Shown here one piece after another: positions 48,133 through 60,818 of a DNA stretch of 64,000 nt. The translations under genes and the position numbers were made by a program. This DNA is from Candidatus Obscuribacterales bacterium (GTDB lineage Bacteria > Cyanobacteriota > Vampirovibrionia > Obscuribacterales > Obscuribacteraceae). The notes beneath the pieces are model-generated. The model made no database searches, was not told where the DNA came from, and worked only from the letters and a program-made list of their open reading frames with translations. Positions within the stretch are counted from its first letter, which is position 1, and every line of letters begins with the position of its first letter. The stretch spans positions 1-64,000 of the forward strand of contig JAGVKB010000120.1 of assembly GCA_020050835.1 (NCBI GenBank). The letters run 5' to 3'.

Positions 48133-50346
48133 TTGAGACCACCTATGAGATTGAATCTTAAACTGACGCACTGGGGATTCGTTCTTGTCGGCGTACCGGT
48201 GCTGGTGGAGCTGGTCTTGCTAGCGTTGCTCTCCGTTCAACTCCAACAATCTTTCCAGGAGCGTCGCGCCGAAATTCGCTCGAAGTCGATCATTGCACAT
48301 GTCGGTGATCTGATCGAGCTGTTTCACGATATGTCCACCGGTCCGGCCGGATTTGGTCTAACCGGAGGAAAGCAATTCTCAGAGCGATACGAAGAGTCTG
48401 CCAGACAGGTACCGGAGAAGTTCGAGGCGATCGAAGGGCTGCTGGACGACAAACCCGCTGAGCTCAAGCAGCTCAACGAGGGCCGATTGATAGCGGATAA
48501 CATGATGAAACTTCTGTCCGACTTAGCCGACCTGATGCGGAAGGAAGATAGAGCGGAGCTGCTCTATCGAATCGAGACCGATGGTCCTGAGCTCAGACTG
48601 CAATACGACCAGCTGGCTGCCAAGATGGAAAGCATTATCTACCAAGAACGGAAGGTTGAACTAGCCAGTCCCGAAGCCCAATCAAAATCGAGGGAGCGAA
48701 TTGTACAGCTTCTCATTGTCGGCGCCATTGGCAATATTATCCTGGCTCTCGCTTTGACAAATTCATTCGGCAAGGCCATAGTCAAACGGCTGGCGATCGT
48801 ACAGGAAAACTGCCGGAGGCTAGTGACACTGGAAGCACCGGCCGTCATTTTAACCGGGAAGGACGAAATTGCTGAATTGGACCGGGCACTGCATCGAGTG
48901 GCCGAGGAGCTAAGCGAGCTCAGAGAACGAGAGCGAGCAATACTAGAAAGTACACTTGACGTTGTTTGCTCGATAGACTCAACTGGACGCTTTTTGCGGG
49001 TCGGGCCATCCTGCCAGAAGCTCTGGGGATATAGCTCAGAAGAGCTGATCGGAAGACGGCTCACTGACTTTATCGCGGAGGACAGCAAAGCTGAGGCACA
49101 CTCGCTGGTTGCCAACGCAGTTGAGCGTTCTTCCCGATGTACATTCGAGACGTCCATTCGCAAGCGAGATGGACAGATAAGCATTGTTTACTGGTACATC
49201 TCCTGGTCCAAACTCGACAACTCTCTTTTCTGTGTAGCTCAGGACATAACCGGCAGAAAACAATATGAAAAGGCGCTTGAAGCGAGCGAGTCATACATCC
49301 GTAGCATTATTGACAGACTACCTGTCGGGGTAGTCATCTGCGATCGCAGCGGACAGATCGAGTCTCTCAATACCAAGAGCTCGCAAATGCTGCAGTGGTC
49401 ACAAGCAGATTTAGCTGGAAAAAGTTTCACAGACATCCTGGAGAGTTCGCTTTTCCCTACGCTTGCTGATTTTCTGCAAACGCTAAACCAGAAAGAGATC
49501 GGTGGCATCAGCGAGTGGCGGATAAAGCGCAAGGCAGGACCACCCATTACGATCGAACTTACAAGAGAACTGTTCGAAACAGCCACTGGCACGAAACATT
49601 TGTTGGTTCTGCAAGACATCTCAGAGCGAGAAAATATCGAACGACTAAAAAAAGAGTTTGTCGCTATGGTCAGCCACGAGTTGCGCACGCCGTTGACTTC
49701 CATCAGAGGAACACTCGGTCTGGCAACAGCCGGCGCGTTCGGACACCTCAACGAGAATGCTGAAAATGCCTTTCGCACGGCGGAACGCAATGCGGTTCGT
49801 CTCACCAGCCTGGTCAACGATCTGCTCGACCTGCAAAAGCTTGAAAGTGGAAAGGTGGATATGGAGCTTCGTGAAATTGCCGTATGTTCTGCCGTGGAAA
49901 GAGCATTGGATTCAGTGAAGGGATTTGCCGAGAAGTTTGAGGTTGAGATCGCCCTGGACCTGGACGATCTATTGGTACGGGCTGACGAAGACCGATTGAT
50001 CCAAGTTTTGGTCAACCTTCTTTCGAATGCCGCCAAATTCTCACCGAAGGGCTCGACAATCACACTGAGCGTGCGCGAGGTCGGCGATACAGTCTTGTTT
50101 AGCATCACCGACCAGGGGCGAGGCATACCGGCTGAATACAAAGATGTGATTTTCGAGCGATTTCAGCAAGTAGACCGCAAACAAGACCGGCAGAAAGGTG
50201 GAACCGGTCTCGGGCTAGCTATCTGCCGAGCGATCGTAGAGCAACATGGCGGAATCATTGGCTTTGACAGCGAAGAGGGCAAAGGCAGCACCTTCTGGTT
50301 CAAGCTACCGCTGGAACGCCCTGAAGCACCACTGACCGCAGCATAG
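48133..50346 (+). CDS. PAS-domain sensor histidine kinase
   Basis: 737 residues from TTG 48133; ATG 48145 is the alternative. One membrane helix (13-33), a periplasmic helical region like CHASE3 (about 40-190, with FHDMSTGPAGFGLTGG), a second helix (about 195-215), a HAMP-like stretch, two PAS domains (about 272-385 and 390-500), HisKA with phospho-acceptor in MVSHELRTPLTSI, and HATPase with NLLSNAAKFSPKG, DQGRGIP and GGTGLGLAI. No receiver domain. Cytosolic autokinase feeding an OmpR-type regulator or the HPt protein nearby. It is the nearest kinase partner for the regulator at 45343, though not in one operon with it. Confidence 0.95.
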   Translation: MRPPMRLNLKLTHWGFVLVGVPVLVELVLLALLSVQLQQSFQERRAEIRSKSIIAHVGDLIELFHDMSTGPAGFGLTGGKQFSERYEESARQVPEKFEAIEGLLDDKPAELKQLNEGRLIADNMMKLLSDLADLMRKEDRAELLYRIETDGPELRLQYDQLAAKMESIIYQERKVELASPEAQSKSRERIVQLLIVGAIGNIILALALTNSFGKAIVKRLAIVQENCRRLVTLEAPAVILTGKDEIAELDRALHRVAEELSELRERERAILESTLDVVCSIDSTGRFLRVGPSCQKLWGYSSEELIGRRLTDFIAEDSKAEAHSLVANAVERSSRCTFETSIRKRDGQISIVYWYISWSKLDNSLFCVAQDITGRKQYEKALEASESYIRSIIDRLPVGVVICDRSGQIESLNTKSSQMLQWSQADLAGKSFTDILESSLFPTLADFLQTLNQKEIGGISEWRIKRKAGPPITIELTRELFETATGTKHLLVLQDISERENIERLKKEFVAMVSHELRTPLTSIRGTLGLATAGAFGHLNENAENAFRTAERNAVRLTSLVNDLLDLQKLESGKVDMELREIAVCSAVERALDSVKGFAEKFEVEIALDLDDLLVRADEDRLIQVLVNLLSNAAKFSPKGSTITLSVREVGDTVLFSITDQGRGIPAEYKDVIFERFQQVDRKQDRQKGGTGLGLAICRAIVEQHGGIIGFDSEEGKGSTFWFKLPLERPEAPLTAA

Positions 50347-50521: not shown

Positions 50522-50589
50522 AGGAACTGTGAACTGATGATTTCAAATAATCCAGACTAATGACCATCAACGACTTAGAGGACGGATCC

Positions 50590-51168
50590 ATGCTGAAAAG
50601 CTCTAGAAAAAACAACGGCACATCTATGGCTGAATTGCCTCTGGTTCTCCTTATTCTTTTTGTGATTCTCGGATTTCCTCTGATAGACCTGGTGACCATT
50701 ACGCTTCAATGTACCTGGGTTCGAACAGTCGTAAGAAGAGCCGCCGAGGAATCAGCAAAGAAAGCGACCTTCGACGACGCAACTGATCCAAATAGCGCAC
50801 GTGCCACAGCAAAGAGAATCATCGAGAACAGTTTGGCTCCGATGAATATCAAAACTGAAACACCGGATGTAAAAATAGTCGTTCTCAAGGGCGCAAAAAC
50901 TACAAACAGTCCTGCAACCCGCAAGGATCATTCAGCAACTATCGGTACTTATCTGGCTGACCAACAGTATCACTGTTTCAATCCAGATGTTCATGTAAGT
51001 GAACTCGAAGTGTCGGTTAAAGCAAGCATTACTCCGTTTTTAGTCTTCAACAAATCGATGTTCGGCAAAGTACCCGGACTAACGGAACCCTTTGAGATCA
51101 GAGAGTCTGCTCGCGCCTTCTTCGAGCACCCGGAAAGTTTGTTCGAACACGAATCTCAAGCGGAATAG
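50590..51168 (+). CDS. TadE-like pilus-associated protein
   Basis: 192 residues from ATG 50590 (GAGG about 8 bp upstream); TTG/ATG at 50560 is less likely. A polar start, then one hydrophobic helix (AELPLVLLILFVILGFPLIDLV), where the conserved Glu before the helix (MAELP) is the typical TadE/prepilin-like mark. A helical spacer WVRTVVRRAAEESAKKAT and an extracytoplasmic domain of about 120 residues follow. TadE-type pseudopilins belong to Tad/Flp pili or to surface secretion. No Tad ATPase or secretin is in the window. The gene has a PHO-box-like site at 50489. Confidence 0.75.
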   Translation: MLKSSRKNNGTSMAELPLVLLILFVILGFPLIDLVTITLQCTWVRTVVRRAAEESAKKATFDDATDPNSARATAKRIIENSLAPMNIKTETPDVKIVVLKGAKTTNSPATRKDHSATIGTYLADQQYHCFNPDVHVSELEVSVKASITPFLVFNKSMFGKVPGLTEPFEIRESARAFFEHPESLFEHESQAE

Positions 51169-53162: not shown

Positions 53163-56100
53163 CTACTTGTGTATGGCTACATAAGGACCATGAGACACAG
53201 TGACCATCTGAAGACAAGCAGCCATGGAGATCAGCTTGCTAGCCAGTAAGCGATCGCGCTTTTGCTTGCTGTTGATTACTTCTCTAAGAAGCTTGGAGTT
53301 GTGGATCAACCCGACAATAGAAACTTCAGAACTTGCTATGCTATGTCCGTTTGGAAGATCCAGCCTGCGAATATCCCGACGTCCTACTTGATCGTTCAGA
53401 CTGTTAACATTGTACTGCTTCCGTCCTACCAACAGAGCTTCCTCTCCAGCTGATATCGCAAATGAATTTGCCCCTAAGCTCACTTTGACGGACTTTCGCT
53501 TGTGCTCGTATACGTTTCGCACCTTTGTGACATCCCCTTGCTGGCAGACGTGCACCATGCCACCTTCCGATACACTTATGCTGTAAGAGCCGGCTCGTAC
53601 TGAAACGTCCTCGAATGCCGACAACAGCACCTCTCCTTCATACAGCGTCATATGTTGCTGCTCATTGAAAGAGAGAGTAGTGTCACCGATGTATCTCGTC
53701 TCAGCCTTATCAGTGATTACCGTTCTCAAGCGAGTTTCATTGGTACCACTGCTGGAGGCTATCCGCTCGTCGAAGCGCACCACCAATAAATTGCCTGAAT
53801 CAGAAAGCAGATCGCCAACTCTTTCAGGAAACAAATCAAAACGCTCATGTCTGATGGATACTTCATCTCCATGCGCACCAGAACTCGACGGAACGAGTCC
53901 CCATTTTCGTTGAATGTAAGCCTTTAGCGATCGCATGTTATCTGAACCCATCACTCCCACGCAGTCAAATCTACACATAAAGCTACTGGTATCATCTAGC
54001 ATCCTGTTCGCGTCGAAGGTTGATATGGCGATATCACATGCAAGCATTTTCTGATTGCGAGCACGGTCGATAGAATCTACGCCAGCTAGCTCACCAGGAC
54101 TTGACTCGGCAGCGGTTACAACCAGTTGTTGACCCGGCGGGACTTCCAACTGCCTGGTGCGGCCGCTCCGATCTGTCCCCACGAATTTCACCGGTGCACC
54201 AGCAATTGAGCTGACAACCAGGACACTTTTACCCGAGTCATTCCGGCACTCGACGATCGAGGCGCTCGAACCTGAAATCTCTACTTTGCCATATCTACTA
54301 CCAAAAACACAGCCCTCGTCCTTTGTTGCAAGAACCACCAGCTTGCCGCTTTCAATTTCAAGCGACCTCGCCCCGGAGCGTCCGACGGTAGCTCCAGAGC
54401 TACCAATCAAGAACAGACCGTCGCTGTGTTGAAATACAAATGGCTGACAGATACCGGGGGCAATAAGCCATTCTTCGCCATTGTCCGAACCGACCCCGAC
54501 ATTTCGATCTACGCTGAACGTGACAGCTTGCTGGCACATATCAGTCAGAGACTGTAAGACACCCTTATTGACCGGAGTGAGATCGGTTGGCACCAAAGCG
54601 TTCTTTTGCGGATCGGACGGAAGATTGAATCTGACGCCGAAAGGGTTGCTGGAGACACCCGGAACACCATCTCCCTCTGGAACTTCAGGTAGCAAGAGAA
54701 AAGGCAAGCTACCGACTATAGTCGAATTGTTGACGATTATCTCACCGGAATAAGTGCCACCGGGATCGATCAACAATCCGCCGCCCTGTGCTGACAGGGC
54801 TGAGCCTGTCAAAACGACGCTGCCAGACACGTTTCGTTCCAGTATGGTAGCCAACCCGTTGCCAGCTGACGATATGCCACCACCGCTAAGTGCCACAGTA
54901 AATCCAGAGACCCCGGTGACCAACTGCCCATCATCGAAGCTCATGCTGGCTGCGTTTTCTATTCGCAACGGCGGCGACTGTCCGTGCCTCTGCACGACCA
55001 TCTGATCGAGCTGTGCAAACGGAATGTCTGACAGTGGAATGAAGTCTTCTACCAAAGTCGGGGGCGGTCCATTTACAACTATCCCTACAACCCCGCCAAC
55101 CGGTGTCTGTCCGACAAATCCACCAATCGACTGCAAGGATGCGGAGTCTACATTCACCAGCGGAGCGACCGGTAGGGAAAGTGGATTAGTGTCAGCACCA
55201 TAAACATTCAGAGCCAGGTTTCCGCCAACCGCAGTAAGATTGCTTCCTGGATTCACGCTGATTCCAATCTCGCTGGAGTCTCTGAAACTGCCACCGGTCG
55301 GATCGCCACTCAGAATAAAAATTCCATTACTGACGGTGCTGGAAGAAACGGATGTAACATCGCCCGAAAGACTTACTTTACCTCCGCTTCCAATAGTCAG
55401 CCCGCTTCCGTTCACAGAAATGTTGGCCAAGGCGAGATCGGACAATATCGAAATCAACTGAGTTCCAAATTCATTAGGCGAAGTAACTGATACATCTATC
55501 CGGCTGCTTGCCGGAACCGTAATTGTCTCGGCCAGCAACAATACAAACGACTCGGCGCTCAAACTCAAACTGGCACCAGCCGCCAAGTCGAGTAGCGTGA
55601 CAGCCGCAGCGATTCCACCACCCTCAACTTGAATCGATGGGCTGGTTCCGCCGATATCGAAAGAGGACAACAACGCGCCGAAGCCTAGAGCCTGGTTTAA
55701 TGGAGAACTTCCGTTTGGCACTGCGCGAACCACAAACGGCAGGTCGCCACTCAGGGTAATAAAGATGGCAATTGCATTTGAAAAATTTACCGGTCCGTCC
55801 GCGTCAATTGACAGACGACCATTCATAGCAGGCGACAGATCGACATTGTCTGAGGACACTTGTAACCCGCCACCGCCCCGGCTGACTATCAGTCCACCCC
55901 CCAGTGTCAAATGACCTGTCCTTTCGGTAGGTAAAAAGAAGTTCCCGCGACCCAGCGTTGACAGCTCAGCACCACCGCTGTTGACCAACAATATCTGCCC
56001 GGTGCCGGTGTTATAGTCAGTCGTGTCATCGATTTCAGCCGAAAAGGGTTTTGGTTGTAAATTGGCACTACCCGAAGTCGATGCCAGCGTTATCTCACCG

Positions 56101-57923
56101 GCCACGTATACACCGCCAGGCAATGGTGCACCGGCCGCGCTGTTTGCCACCCGTGAAGCATTGATGCTGCCGACCGACACCGCCACGAACTCCTGCCCCT
56201 TTGTTGCCGGTGATCCAGGCACTCCGAAAACATCTTCAAAATTAGCGCCAGCCGGGTCAGAGACAAAAAATGGCACTACCAGATCATCGAAGCCAGCAAA
56301 CCCGTCTCCCAGCCCCAGAGGCACGACGATATCCCGAGACAGTGTAATCTGCCCCTGATCGTTATCAAAACTGACAAAACCGCCCCCTGGCAGCATGGAG
56401 GGAGTGACCGGCAGCGGACCGGAGTTCGTAAATGCAACTGGCAGAGTCCCAGACACCGGAACAGATCCGTCTTCATAAATCTGCTCGGAATGCGCCCCAG
56501 CTATGCTGCCAGTAACAACATTGTGATTAGTTCCGGACAGTCCGCCAACGGCCGTGACGAGAACATCGCCACCCCGACCGCCAACTCCGCTCGAAACATC
56601 TAGGCTCCCGAGCGAAATAGGCGCATCAGCGCTGGCATAGATACTGCCACCGCTGCCTCCAGCCGCAAGCGCTACTGCCTTAATATTAGCCGCCGTAACA
56701 CCGTTTCTTCCCAGCAGTGCTATGTGGCCGGCCTCGTCAAGGCCGGATGTATTGATGCCGCCCTGCACGTCTACAGCACCGCCAGCCACAAGCACAACAT
56801 TGCCTCCACGCCCGGTTGTGCTGGCTGTGTTGAGATCACTGGTGATGGTTATGTTACCGTTAGCTGTTACCTGGAAAAGCTCCCCAGCGAAATTTCCTCC
56901 CGGAGAAATGAAATTGCCAGCGACATTGAAGACCGGATCACCGGACAGGTCCAAACGCGCGATATTTAAGTCTCCACTTGAGACCGCAGCCGAAAGCTCT
57001 CTGGCCTTTATGGACACTGCCCCCTGCACTTGCTGCGCAGCCAAGCTAATTGCTCCCTGCAAAGCTGTGAGGTTGATATTTTGAGCCTGTAGCGCGCCAC
57101 CAGATACCGCCAGCTGGGACTGCCAGACAGCAGTCTGGATGTTGACCGTACCAGACGGAGCCAATATGTTGCCACCGGCATTGTTTACTACAAAACTGCT
57201 GCCGGATCCAGCAAAATTCACGTTGCCGAGAGTTGACTGAATGACACCGAAATTGCTTATCGACTGCCCTACCAACACACTCAAATCGCCTGTACTGGAG
57301 ATCAAGCCAGCATTAGCCAAGCTTCCAAGAACATTCAGCGTCAAATTCGCCTTGTCTTGAGCAAGCGCATTGGAAATCTGCCCGCCGGCAGCAACCTGCA
57401 GGTTGGACGCATTGATAATGCCATTTTCGGCCTGCATCAAAATGCTTCCTGCAATACTTGCCTGCCCTGCAATATTCAACGAATGGACAGTACTTTCACT
57501 TGCTGCACCACCAGAGCTGGAAGACACCACCGAATAAGCAACGACACCTTGCGGTAAAACGAAGTTAGCCAGACTGGTCGACGGCCCGAGATTGAGAGAG
57601 CCTCCTACTGCCGCACCCAGACTGTTGACGGTTAGTTCTTGCTGCCCGGACTGCACCTGAGTGAGCGCTACAAATTCTGCCGGTGTTAGCAACATGCCAG
57701 CAGAGATCTGTCTAGGGTCCTGGCCGGCAATCTGTATCTGTCCAGCAGCCGGAGCCTCGATTGAAGCTGTAGTGGACGAAAGGTCCAGATGCTCAGGCAA
57801 TGATTCCGCCAGCGCCGGCTGAAGTAAGAATTCACCGATAAATACAAGCAGTAAGATCCAGACAGTTCCTTGCTCGAATGTACTACCTGCACTAAATCTA
57901 CGCAGTGAATGAAACTTCACCAT
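53163..57923 (-). CDS. Large exported beta-helix adhesin-like protein with FecR-like segments
   Basis: 1586 residues from ATG 57923 (GAGGGA 6 bp upstream; 57953 would be almost leaderless at the predicted start site). Signal peptide to about 41 (QPALAES). Residues about 60-1090 are Ser/Gly/Asn-rich repeats of a parallel beta-helix like filamentous haemagglutinin (NAGLISSTGDLSVLVGQSI, GGNVVLVAGGAVDVQGG), opening with LTPAEFVALTQVQSGQQ. The last 480 residues differ: two stretches resemble FecR domains (about 1170-1255, ESGKLVVLATKDEGCV; about 1435-1510, LYEGEVLLSAFEDVSVRAGSYSI). Probably a cell-surface adhesin or matrix protein; no TpsB partner or autotransporter barrel is seen. Preceded by site 3. 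Confidence 0.82.
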   Translation of the reverse strand: MVKFHSLRRFSAGSTFEQGTVWILLLVFIGEFLLQPALAESLPEHLDLSSTTASIEAPAAGQIQIAGQDPRQISAGMLLTPAEFVALTQVQSGQQELTVNSLGAAVGGSLNLGPSTSLANFVLPQGVVAYSVVSSSSGGAASESTVHSLNIAGQASIAGSILMQAENGIINASNLQVAAGGQISNALAQDKANLTLNVLGSLANAGLISSTGDLSVLVGQSISNFGVIQSTLGNVNFAGSGSSFVVNNAGGNILAPSGTVNIQTAVWQSQLAVSGGALQAQNINLTALQGAISLAAQQVQGAVSIKARELSAAVSSGDLNIARLDLSGDPVFNVAGNFISPGGNFAGELFQVTANGNITITSDLNTASTTGRGGNVVLVAGGAVDVQGGINTSGLDEAGHIALLGRNGVTAANIKAVALAAGGSGGSIYASADAPISLGSLDVSSGVGGRGGDVLVTAVGGLSGTNHNVVTGSIAGAHSEQIYEDGSVPVSGTLPVAFTNSGPLPVTPSMLPGGGFVSFDNDQGQITLSRDIVVPLGLGDGFAGFDDLVVPFFVSDPAGANFEDVFGVPGSPATKGQEFVAVSVGSINASRVANSAAGAPLPGGVYVAGEITLASTSGSANLQPKPFSAEIDDTTDYNTGTGQILLVNSGGAELSTLGRGNFFLPTERTGHLTLGGGLIVSRGGGGLQVSSDNVDLSPAMNGRLSIDADGPVNFSNAIAIFITLSGDLPFVVRAVPNGSSPLNQALGFGALLSSFDIGGTSPSIQVEGGGIAAAVTLLDLAAGASLSLSAESFVLLLAETITVPASSRIDVSVTSPNEFGTQLISILSDLALANISVNGSGLTIGSGGKVSLSGDVTSVSSSTVSNGIFILSGDPTGGSFRDSSEIGISVNPGSNLTAVGGNLALNVYGADTNPLSLPVAPLVNVDSASLQSIGGFVGQTPVGGVVGIVVNGPPPTLVEDFIPLSDIPFAQLDQMVVQRHGQSPPLRIENAASMSFDDGQLVTGVSGFTVALSGGGISSAGNGLATILERNVSGSVVLTGSALSAQGGGLLIDPGGTYSGEIIVNNSTIVGSLPFLLLPEVPEGDGVPGVSSNPFGVRFNLPSDPQKNALVPTDLTPVNKGVLQSLTDMCQQAVTFSVDRNVGVGSDNGEEWLIAPGICQPFVFQHSDGLFLIGSSGATVGRSGARSLEIESGKLVVLATKDEGCVFGSRYGKVEISGSSASIVECRNDSGKSVLVVSSIAGAPVKFVGTDRSGRTRQLEVPPGQQLVVTAAESSPGELAGVDSIDRARNQKMLACDIAISTFDANRMLDDTSSFMCRFDCVGVMGSDNMRSLKAYIQRKWGLVPSSSGAHGDEVSIRHERFDLFPERVGDLLSDSGNLLVVRFDERIASSSGTNETRLRTVITDKAETRYIGDTTLSFNEQQHMTLYEGEVLLSAFEDVSVRAGSYSISVSEGGMVHVCQQGDVTKVRNVYEHKRKSVKVSLGANSFAISAGEEALLVGRKQYNVNSLNDQVGRRDIRRLDLPNGHSIASSEVSIVGLIHNSKLLREVINSKQKRDRLLASKLISMAACLQMVTVSHGPYVAIHK

Positions 57924-58247
57924 AGGATCCCTCGCTAAACACTCTGGCAGCATCCAAGTTCGAACTTACTTCTTATCTGTAACCAAACCGTAACCGTTCG
58001 CGCCGCCAGATGAATTCCACCGATGCGTCGACCGAACTATCTTTAGTCATCTCAGCTCCCCAGCTCTAAGACACTATCGTGAGGACAAGTCACCGAAAGA
58101 TTATTGACCAGGACTCAACTGAGCCAGTCACAGCGGCAGATCCAGATATCGCACGTTATTCCCCATTTATCACCTTTACCCAGCAAGACGCAGTCTGTAA
58201 CATCCATTCGGGCTCTGGAGACAGAGAAAGAGTATGACCGCATTCGG
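57924..58247. other. 324-bp intergenic region upstream of the adhesin
   Basis: Holds the PHO-box-like site 3 (57963-57995) near the adhesin start. The rest, up to the end of the TadE-like gene, shows no gene, hairpin or promoter that I can support. Confidence 0.5.
57963..57995 (-). promoter_or_regulatory. PHO-box-like direct repeat plus -10, site 3 (before adhesin)
   Basis: On the minus strand GGTTACGGTTT (57995-57985) then GGTTACAGATA (57984-57974), 11-bp period, five bases (AGAAG), then TAAGTT (57968-57963) as -10. Predicted start near 57956, 33 bases before ATG 57923. Confidence 0.7.
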
Positions 58248-58772
58248 TTACATTGAGGCAGAACCATCCGTTCCAGAAGACCCGATAGCGGTCACCTTCG
58301 GCAATCTTAGTTTGACTACCGGGAAAGTATATTGCTGTCTCAAACCAACTTTCGTGCCCGCTGAATCGGCCCCAAAAGGCATGAGCGGGAACGGCAGGCG
58401 AACAGACAGCCTGGTGCCAACCGTAACGCGCGGTCCATCACTTGACTCTGCTCCTTCCGTCGGAAAGCTGAATACTTCAGGCGCGTCAGCGTCAACGGTA
58501 AAAAATGACGGATTCAATTGGAATGAACTTATAACTGCCCTTGCCGCATTCTTTGCACTGGTTGCATCCGATGACTGAGCTGCCGCGCGTGCGGATTCGC
58601 GTGTAATTTTGTCGTTAAGACTGGCTGCTTGAACCAACAACACTGCGTTGGTTGTCAGCCCGATCATCACAAACAACAGCGGGATAGCAGCACACAACTC
58701 CACAAGTAGACTTCCTCTGCTGGTCCGATTTTTACTATTCGACTTCAGCCTGGGCGAGACGTTAATATTCAT
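58248..58772 (-). CDS. TadE-like pilus-associated protein (second)
   Basis: 174 residues with a perfect AGGAGG 8 bp before the ATG. Polar N-terminus, conserved Glu in LLVELCAAIPLLF, a hydrophobic helix (about 22-45), a helical spacer (SLNDKITRESARAAAQSS) and an extracytoplasmic domain of about 110 residues. It follows the TadG-like gene by 12 bp and is its operon partner, the usual TadE-TadG pairing. Different in sequence from the TadE-like protein at 50590, so two paralogues serve this island. Confidence 0.8.
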   Translation of the reverse strand: MNINVSPRLKSNSKNRTSRGSLLVELCAAIPLLFVMIGLTTNAVLLVQAASLNDKITRESARAAAQSSDATSAKNAARAVISSFQLNPSFFTVDADAPEVFSFPTEGAESSDGPRVTVGTRLSVRLPFPLMPFGADSAGTKVGLRQQYTFPVVKLRLPKVTAIGSSGTDGSASM

Positions 58773-58784
58773 ATGACTTACCTC

Positions 58785-60734
58785 CTAAAGCGTAACTAGA
58801 TTGCGCGCTATGTTTTGAAAGACCTGATCAAGCCTGCTTCTTATGTTGTCGCGCTGAGCCGGCTCCGGAGCCTGGTACTCACCCGGCAACATTGATGGTT
58901 TGACGCCGCCGGCAAAATCGCTTTCCGCTACCCGGTAATAGCGCGCTCCATGCCCTGAACTTCCGGCCAGTCCGAAACCATCTTTATACTGATCGCCAAG
59001 GTCTTTGTCGACGCTGCCAAGCTTAACTTCCGGGTCGTCTCGAAAATGCCAGTTGTGAGGAGCGTCGTAATGTCCAAACTCTTCGCGTGGTCCATAAAAT
59101 CCGATTGTATAAATCGGAATGCCCTGTTTACGAGCACGGTTGCAAGGGTCAACACACGAGCCCTGTCTCCAGGTATGAATCCCCAGAATACTTATCTTGA
59201 AGTCATCAACTAGCGGGAAATCCATCCAGCGCTTCAGCTTGTACGCCCACGGACTTTTGTCATCTTTGTTTTCCTCACGCAAGCCCAGCGCAAGTCCTCT
59301 GGTCAGAAGCACGATAACCTTGCGTCGCGTGGGATCTTTCTGTGCATCCAGCAAGTTAAGCGCTTCGTCGAGACCATGATTGATCGCCGAACCAGGATAA
59401 ACCGTAACCCCTTCCCCATCTTGATCGTTGCTGAGTTTTCTTTTGAGCGCATCGGCACTATCTGTCAGCTGACTGTAAGGCAAGGTGTATGTTCTGACCT
59501 CACCCACTCCTTTGCCAACAACGCTGCCGCCTGCAGTGTCGCCATAACCGGTCGAAACCGACTGGAACTTAAACTCAGAGGTGCTGGGGTCAGAATAGGC
59601 TGATGAGGCTGCCTGACCGGCAAATGTCACCAGGCCAATCCGCGCACCGGGATATCTCTCATGAAGAGTGTCGACAAACCCCCTCAAAGAATCCAAGCAG
59701 AGATTGAGTGGTTGAAGTTGCTGTCTTGCTTCCATTTCATAAGCCGAAGTAAAACCTTCCTTGCTTTGCTGTGCGGCTCTTGACTCATCGACAAGCTTTT
59801 CCAAAGGCCAGTTGGGTACATCAACGACGAGATCTGTATATTGCCGCTTTTCATCTTGACTGCCCGGACGAATAGGTCCGCCACGCAAGCCTGTTGCCGG
59901 GTCGACCTGAGCATCACCGAATGTCGCCGGAAGATCCCATTTACGAGGGTCCCCAGTTTCTCTAAGCAGTGGATTAAAGTGCAACATAGGGAAATAACCA
60001 CCCCCATCATGATTGGCGATTAGCATCTGGGGAGGCAATGGATAACCGATTGGATGCTCCCATCCGCGCTTACCGAAAACCATCTCCCCATTGGGACAGA
60101 CATCATACCCCCACTCATTGCTCAACCCCTTGCCGGGGTCGTTGTCCTGCCACTTCCTGTACCTTCGAGCGAATTTTACCGGCGTCCAGTCAGCCATCCT
60201 GTCGCCAATCTCCACACAAAGTACGATATCCAGTTTTGGGAAGGCGACTTGGGATTTACACTTGAGCTTATAGGGGCTCAACCCGAGAATTCTTTGACAC
60301 AGCGGAGTAACCGTACAGCTCGAGTTGACCTTCACCGTGACTGGCTCCTTAGCGCTTCCATCAACCACCTCGAAGTCGATGAAGGAACCTTTTTGAAGTT
60401 TGGATCCTAAAATTGTATTTTCAGCAAAAATCTCGTCGGCAACTTTCCTGGCAGTCGCCTTGATGTTTGTGCTGGCGCCAGTGGAATTGCCTTTATCCGC
60501 ATATGTCAGCAAGTATGCCAACCCTGCCGCATCAGTTGCAACCTTAAGCTGTTCAGATGCAAGCGCCGCACGGCTCACTTCCAGGGCAAAGAGTCCAATC
60601 GCTCCTAGGACAGCAAAGCCAAAGACCAGAGCCAAAGCCGATACTGCTATACCGGATTGCTTTCTAACCATCCGCGGTGCAGTTCCGCGCACAGCCCTAT
60701 CCTGCGTTCTCAAACCACTAGTTGCGTACTTCAT
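58785..60734 (-). CDS. TadG-like protein with degenerate von Willebrand A domain
   Basis: 649 residues from ATG 60734 (GGTGG 7 bp upstream). The frame runs open to 60812, but that is the predicted transcription start. After a Lys/Arg-rich start comes the TadG helix (GIAVSALALVFGFAVLGAIGLFALEVSRA), then ASEQLKVATDAAGLA as in TadG/RcpC proteins. The VWA domain (about 175-640) carries the first strand DIVLCVEIGDR, a helix-strand LRGFVDTLHERYPGARIGLVTFAG, and IVLLTRGL then IPIYTIGFYG. The MIDAS pattern DxSxS is replaced by ExGxR and the later D of LLTDG by R, so metal binding is probably lost. A long insert (about 170 residues) separates the first strand from the rest. Surface or pilus-tip adhesin-like function. 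Confidence 0.78.
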   Translation of the reverse strand: MKYATSGLRTQDRAVRGTAPRMVRKQSGIAVSALALVFGFAVLGAIGLFALEVSRAALASEQLKVATDAAGLAYLLTYADKGNSTGASTNIKATARKVADEIFAENTILGSKLQKGSFIDFEVVDGSAKEPVTVKVNSSCTVTPLCQRILGLSPYKLKCKSQVAFPKLDIVLCVEIGDRMADWTPVKFARRYRKWQDNDPGKGLSNEWGYDVCPNGEMVFGKRGWEHPIGYPLPPQMLIANHDGGGYFPMLHFNPLLRETGDPRKWDLPATFGDAQVDPATGLRGGPIRPGSQDEKRQYTDLVVDVPNWPLEKLVDESRAAQQSKEGFTSAYEMEARQQLQPLNLCLDSLRGFVDTLHERYPGARIGLVTFAGQAASSAYSDPSTSEFKFQSVSTGYGDTAGGSVVGKGVGEVRTYTLPYSQLTDSADALKRKLSNDQDGEGVTVYPGSAINHGLDEALNLLDAQKDPTRRKVIVLLTRGLALGLREENKDDKSPWAYKLKRWMDFPLVDDFKISILGIHTWRQGSCVDPCNRARKQGIPIYTIGFYGPREEFGHYDAPHNWHFRDDPEVKLGSVDKDLGDQYKDGFGLAGSSGHGARYYRVAESDFAGGVKPSMLPGEYQAPEPAQRDNIRSRLDQVFQNIARNLVTL

Positions 60735-60818
60735 CTCCATTCCACCCGTAGTTGAAAGTCCCAGCCAAACGTTGCCGTACAGTTGTGCTTTACGCGCACC
60801 CTCAGCATCCACAATTTC

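Follow-up and report, generated by a model that had tools for sequence, protein, structure and literature searches.

Two kinds of described systems bear on the protein analysed here. The first comprises the TpsA adhesins. One account (PMC5422565) describes how the disulfide-closed C-terminus of HMW1 stays in the periplasm and locks HMW1 in the TpsB pore, and gives the same periplasmic C-terminal anchoring as expected for HxuA. For FhaB, PMC8263021 describes a prodomain that is kept in the periplasm. The second comprises proteins with FecR domains. The periplasmic FecR-type region of PupR is described in PMC7186176 as an all-beta subdomain next to the membrane with an STN domain after it, and the Leptospira protein LIC11834 is presented, in PMC3444417, as an exported protein with a FecR domain and not as a sigma regulator.

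We analysed a 64,000-nucleotide stretch of DNA (the window) on contig C4 of a Candidatus Obscuribacterales genome (7.01 Mb, 154 contigs, 95.7% complete). The host is a non-photosynthetic relative of cyanobacteria. The initial annotation had joined a long beta-helix to two FecR-like segments in one frame, and we confirm this observation and show that it applies more widely than first described. Our literature search found no report of FecR-ended giant or haemagglutinin-like proteins in Obscuribacterales or Vampirovibrionia.

Gene layout and signal peptide

The long reverse-strand frame annotated at 53163–57923 exists. Counted from its first ATG, the open reading frame spans 53163..57953 (−) and encodes 1596 aa, while position 57923 is the second ATG, which lies directly downstream of an SD-like GAGGG and yields 1586 aa. 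This protein consists of a signal peptide, a right-handed beta-helix and two C-terminal domains, D1 and D2 (Table 1), and its hydropathy profile peaks at residues 21–39. Searches of the whole protein against Pfam (E up to 1), NCBIfam and PDB sequences returned no match, and the fold calls therefore needed structure models and profiles. Promoter and terminator scans at the locus stayed at chance level.

We found no barrel match (Pfam, E up to 1), no hydrophobic tail and no LPXTG- or exosortase-like end in the protein. Pfam and hydropathy thus agree with the annotated absence of a barrel or exosortase tail from the chain. The features of a type Va autotransporter or of an exosortase or sortase substrate are absent, as there is neither a C-terminal barrel nor a TM-plus-motif tail.

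Table 1. Features of the giant gene and its neighbours (positions in the window).
Feature	Position	Strand	Basis or remark
Sec signal peptide, residues 1–39 (ends ...LLQPALA, followed by ES)	57807..57923	−	sequence and hydropathy; cleavage site by eye
N-terminal TPS-like beta-helix cap (N-cap; predicted), LTPAEF... motif, common to paralogues	56925..57788	−	AlphaFold model
Beta-helix passenger (putative), cysteine-free	54564..56924	−	repetitive G/S/T/V/N-rich sequence
D1, FecR-fold domain (predicted; Cys 1159 and 1317 in near-invariant columns)	53949..54476	−	model, VIA Z, HMM, Cys counts
D2, second FecR-like domain with helical tail	53169..53798	−	profile 237.5 bits; homologous to D1
Conserved helical tail of D2, SEVSLVSL..LL..L..S..D..L..K.IKMAACL	53202..53318	−	model helices and conserved columns
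TadE-like protein, upstream neighbour	58248..58772	−	pilin-like N-terminus by eye; paralogue in C117 block
TadG-like protein, weak VWA	58785..60812	−	VWA E 0.0008, below cut-off
Conserved neighbour, one hydrophobic segment	52309..52920	−	30% identical to C117 neighbour; no Pfam match
Second TadE-like neighbour	50560..51168	+	27% identical to C117 neighbour
CHASE3-PAS histidine kinase	48133..50346	+ (other strand)	Pfam

The N-terminal beta-helix resembles TPS secretion domains in predicted fold

We modelled residues 36–480 with AlphaFold from five N-caps (pLDDT 80, pTM 0.80). Among 88 Foldseek chains compared with this model, the top VIA Z scores belonged to EtpA (20.4 and 20.1), HxuA (20.2) and HMW1 (19.8). 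The HxuA secretion domain superposed with an rmsd of 2.7 over 211 residues, and FHA gave a Z of 16.7. As for non-TPS chains, tailspikes reached a Z of 16.8 and CsgA 19.1, but the latter with an rmsd of 9.2. Foldseek alone returned nothing significant for the model. Among the superpositions of low rmsd, TPS secretion domains match best and the predicted fold is TPS-like, which, with a Z of about 20, bears out at the level of a model the filamentous-haemagglutinin-like beta-helix proposed in the initial annotation. Judging from its sequence, the passenger past residue 480 is probably beta-helical as well.

The TPS domain PF05860 had no match in the host genome or in 38 relatives of the order; of 21 class genomes not belonging to the order, eight had matches over the cut-off. 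Furthermore, hhalign of 15 N-caps against 15 TPS domains gave 6.6%. Ten of the 12 N-cap frames of the host genome that could be read to both ends finish in D2; one of the 12, on C75, was assembled from several separate results. N-cap proteins without a FecR end lie on contigs C2 and C86, and also on C33, where the frame is cut at its start. The C33 protein (L223:865-7875, −) has a calpain-like C-terminus in place of the FecR-like one, with a Peptidase_C2 match of 17.2 bits, below the cut-off.

A duplicated FecR-like domain and its helical tail

For the C-terminal model, we aligned 18 C-termini, namely that of the window and those of 17 of 18 loci from a named collection, four of which consisted of D2 only. 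The model had a mean pLDDT of 72.9 and a pTM of 0.46, with ten-residue pLDDT means mostly of 73–94 within D1 and D2 and a linker that was not resolved. The sole Foldseek match under 1e-3 was PupR (6ovk, E 2.1e-4). By VIA, the three FecR-type anti-sigma structures stood out, with Z scores of 15.7 for 4m0h (rmsd 2.4 over 133 residues), 15.6 for 4m0n and 15.2 for 6ovk, compared with 5.2 in the next row; their rmsd values were 2.3–3.0 over 133–135 residues. Two of these rows span D1, and the 4m0n row begins in D1 and extends to model residue 418. In the model, D1 has the FecR fold. Each FecR unit leads into further strands and helices, and the tail helices occupy model residues 395–401, 403–409 and 414–433.

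D2 is FecR-like through its homology to D1, as judged from profile comparison. The two domains aligned in hhalign at 97.9% (E 4.7e-13), and comparison with FecR domains from 27 of 30 loci in the phylum gave 79.7% for D1 and 53.5% for D2, versus 0.1–2.7% for six control pairs. Furthermore, a search of 292 sampled genomes of the phylum with the D2 profile produced a single weak match outside the host genome (E 2.5e-4), and this protein, L095, is a cyanobacterial Pfam FecR protein (34.1 bits), in which the match is confined to the FecR part and leaves out the tail. In the VIA list, the D2 region (model residues 255–360) found only lyase beta-sandwiches with Z of about 4–5, a neutral result.

The Pfam FecR signature is absent from the protein at E up to 1 and was not among the 25 families in the matches listed for 45 D2 members; D1 of one paralogue reached 14.2 bits against it (cut-off 24). 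Matches of D2 members to GGA_N-GAT (13 of 45, best 7e-5), of a single member to MACPF_SNTX (5e-4) and the remaining scattered, weak Pfam and PDB matches were taken as chance. The two annotated FecR-like stretches are thus upheld, D1 by its model and D2 by homology and by the link from its profile to a Pfam FecR protein. A known autotransporter or anchor fold in place of FecR was looked for and did not appear. Beyond that first reading, both segments turn out to be copies of a single domain that carries a helical tail.

The C-terminal module recurs throughout Obscuribacterales

The genome-wide search that the initial annotation had suggested showed that many proteins share this C-terminal part and form a large family. 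The D2 profile matched 36 of 39 Obscuribacterales genomes, the host included (no match in G003, G012 and G030), and none of 21 class genomes outside the order. In the host genome, it found 29 D2 ends, seven D1 matches in the same frames and four weak ones. In the window protein, the match stops 1 aa short of the stop codon. The distance from profile end to stop is at most 9 aa in 23 of the 29 host copies and at most 33 aa in 28; the one exception, L202 on contig C41, has 152 aa beyond its D2 match. Similarly, in the named collection, the match ended within 6 aa of the stop in 17 of 18 loci and 25 aa from it in the other. These 18 kin, from a scan with one short pattern that is not a census, are titled Candidatus Obscuribacterales (14), Melainabacteria (1), uncultured bacterium (1) and Chloroflexi (2). 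The two titled Chloroflexi, SBAT01000216.1 (L103) and SBAT01000240.1 (L111), carry the module and are probably mislabelled. D2, often together with D1, is a C-terminal module found so far in Obscuribacterales alone.

The passengers of the D2 family are beta-helices, GPT repeats, Pro-rich linkers or missing altogether. Seven of the 29 host copies are short exported proteins without a long passenger (frames of 219–486 aa, signal peptides by eye), consisting of a signal peptide, a linker and D2 only. At the other extreme, genome G021 has an intact frame of 25,007 aa (G021:C2:174646-249666, −; L216–L219) that opens with a signal peptide and closes with D1–D2, in which the N-cap profile found no match, and G011 has a family frame of 15,075 aa. 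Two loci, L009:3-2234 (+) and L063:1535-3706 (−), on contigs C123 and C121, have long GPT/GPS collagen-like repeats as passengers and share two neighbouring genes. In L105, L106 and L115, near 6.5–7 kb, giant family genes stand head to tail, and the N-cap frame begins about 300 bases past the preceding D2 stop. The order has many long genes of this family, which therefore probably shape its surface.

Could D1–D2 be a C-terminal sorting signal, similar to the type IX C-terminal domain, that addresses its passengers to a dedicated, undescribed exporter of the order? Its nearly constant C-terminal place, unrelated passengers, many copies per genome and restriction to one lineage would fit such a role in export instead of anchoring. 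However, D1–D2 is large, is duplicated and folds like an interaction domain, and the short proteins made of signal peptide, linker and D2 also speak against a sorting signal, which we consider unlikely.

Secretion partners, barrels and secretins

No ShlB (TpsB) match over the cut-off of 22.7 bits was found in the 39 genomes of the order, with a sub-threshold 21.1 bits in one of them and no hit at all in the host genome; the same profile exceeded the cut-off in 12 of the 21 class controls. The host genome has one POTRA_2 gene, and since it lies beside Skp-, LpxD- and LpxC-like genes (sequences named by eye), it reads as BamA. The missing TpsB partner reported in the initial annotation is therefore confirmed, by the ShlB and POTRA_2 profiles, in this genome, which is 95.7% complete.

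Could the proteins stay inside the outer membrane as periplasmic or wall-bound fibres, with their FecR-fold domains in the usual place? The missing TpsB and sequence-level TPS domain, together with a signal peptide that is Sec-type only, are compatible with such a location, and according to PMC7186176 the FecR-type domain of sigma regulators is periplasmic. On the other hand, frames of up to 25,007 aa, the TPS-like cap and the Cys-poor passengers fit surface proteins better, although they are no proof. We regard a purely periplasmic location as quite improbable, and the fibre proteins as probably surface-exposed.

TonB barrels occur in a minority of the order genomes. The host genome has one (contig C136) compared with 29 family copies, one of which it may still be linked to; matches over the cut-off occurred in 9 of the 27 order genomes searched, and the copy-rich genomes G008, G016 and G021 had none. 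In three genomes from another family of the class, frames of 1155–1160 aa (G048:C2:38825-41980; L133, L137 and L141) carry a FecR domain close to their start and have TPR-like repeats recognised by eye. In the G048 frame, two weak matches to a TonB barrel (28.9 and 29.4 bits) would place FecR under an outer-membrane barrel; G043, searched likewise, has none.

FecR-type domains bind STN-type domains, and secretins can carry STN. The host genome has three secretins, of which a pair on contig C88, presumably of the Tad/CpaC type, carries T2SS-T3SS_pil_N, and one on C69 carries STN. We considered docking of the FecR pair to a secretin and found it not supported, as no family gene lay in the secretin flanks examined and secretins occurred in 39 of the 40 genomes searched, class genomes included. 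The C88 pair has a weak FecR-like protein some 10 kb away. The tandem secretin genes of C88 (L210:8927-14077, +) have counterparts in close secretin pairs of several other order genomes.

Neighbouring genes

The giant gene shares its surroundings with its nearest paralogue on contig C117. The C117 block contains this paralogue, two TadE-like proteins, one TadG-like protein, another small protein and a CHASE3 histidine kinase, which follows the giant gene by 66 bases on the same strand and to which the window kinase is 44% identical. The upstream neighbour in the window matched TadE_Rv3655c with E 0.074, below the cut-off; the C117 counterpart of the second TadE-like protein reached E 0.0014, also below it, while the window copy had no match; and the two TadG-like proteins show weak similarity to each other (E 1.5e-4). 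Counting a related kinase frame two genes on from a family gene on C56, histidine kinases of this group stand beside family genes in three places (C4, C117 and C56). We also noted a group of 16 neighbouring frames with TPR, Ser/Thr kinase and response-regulator domains, of which four lie in other parts of the window; since such domains are common, we read nothing into this group.

Kinases beside the giant genes raise the question of whether the FecR pair serves in signalling, as the end by which a surface-sensing fibre relays through the periplasm, here to the CHASE3 kinase. FecR-type domains do signal in PupR and FecR, related kinase frames recur at three loci, and the C4 and C117 giants have kept the same companions (two TadE-like proteins, one TadG-like protein and a fourth neighbour). 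However, kinase adjacency concerns 3 of 29 copies of one genome, the window kinase is on the other strand, and TonB receptors, the classic partners, exceed the cut-off in only a third of the order genomes searched, with no match in three copy-rich ones. We hold signalling to be quite improbable overall, although these three members may have such a role.

Cysteine distribution and a possible periplasmic anchor

The target protein has no cysteine before residue 1130 and nine after it. Across 59 members with a passenger of at least 200 aa (18 of 77 distinct ends were dropped), we counted 1.7 cysteines per 1000 residues in passengers (157 in 90,399 aa, many passengers being truncated by locus ends), 12.0 in C-terminal modules (238 in 19,820 aa) and 9.2 in 19 other genes of the window (117 in 12,678 aa). 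Beta-helices are generally cysteine-poor, so this contrast is suggestive only. In D1, two cysteine columns are each filled in 32 of 36 sequences, and both are filled in 31.

Could the FecR pair serve as an anchor that keeps the end of a surface fibre in the periplasm? We tentatively favour this mechanism as the most likely one. The Sec machinery would bring the protein to the periplasm, as its signal peptide suggests, and the unfolded, cysteine-free beta-helix may then cross the outer membrane N-terminus first, in the manner of TpsA proteins, through a pore that may be BamA or an unrecognised Omp85 protein. The FecR-fold pair, with its conserved cysteines and helical tail, would fold in the periplasm and not be exported, perhaps closed by a disulfide. 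Staying behind in folded form, it would hold the fibre in the envelope, by analogy with the disulfide-closed end of HMW1 and the prodomain of FhaB.

Several lines of evidence point to such an anchor: the FecR fold predicted for D1, the homology of D1 and D2, and their near-constant C-terminal place; passengers that differ while the C-terminal end is kept; and the TPS-like N-terminal fold, the lack of a TpsB over the cut-off, the cysteine asymmetry and the conserved cysteine pair. The periplasmic anchors shown for HMW1, expected for HxuA and provided by the FhaB prodomain lend it further weight by analogy. The weak barrel matches in the FecR frame of G048 count in its favour too, with the reservation that G043 has none. 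On the other hand, the 7 of 29 copies without a long passenger do not need a fibre anchor, N-cap proteins without a FecR end exist (C2, C86 and C33), and the N-cap profile misses the largest frame. For the three members with histidine kinase genes beside them, this proximity favours a role in signalling.

A broader form of the proposal is that the order exports TpsA-like giants without TpsB, via BamA or another pore, and uses a duplicated FecR-fold signalling domain as the general periplasmic end-stop of dozens of fibres per genome, in frames of up to 25,007 residues. We consider this generalisation rather doubtful. If true, it would add a new means of retaining giant surface proteins in the envelope of Gram-negative bacteria and extend the FecR fold to a new function, and it raises the question by what route TPS-like proteins pass the outer membrane when no TpsB is found.

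Comparison with known systems

The protein shares with the TpsA adhesins HMW1, HxuA and FhaB a signal peptide, a predicted N-terminal TPS-like beta-helix and a long beta-helix. Similar to the disulfide-closed anchor of HMW1, its cysteines are concentrated at the C-terminus, for which we propose periplasmic retention. Unlike these adhesins, it has no TPS signature by sequence, and no TpsB exceeds the cut-off in the order. Its C-terminal part consists of two FecR-fold domains of about 440 aa in total, whereas HMW1 has a short disulfide loop and FhaB a prodomain. The protein thus resembles an anchored TpsA but lacks two defining TPS features and, by these tests, is not a TPS member.

With the FecR-type sigma regulators (FecR and PupR; 6ovk, 4m0h and 4m0n) it shares the modelled FecR fold of D1, followed by strands and helices. 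It differs from them in having no anti-sigma domain, no transmembrane helix and no Pfam-level FecR match, and in that a signal peptide and beta-helix precede the FecR domains, which stand in tandem at the end of a fibre. Leptospira LIC11834 and the cyanobacterial L095 are likewise exported proteins (lipoprotein or surface protein) that carry FecR without being sigma regulators, but they are short, with one FecR domain each. The protein described here has the FecR fold without being a sigma regulator.
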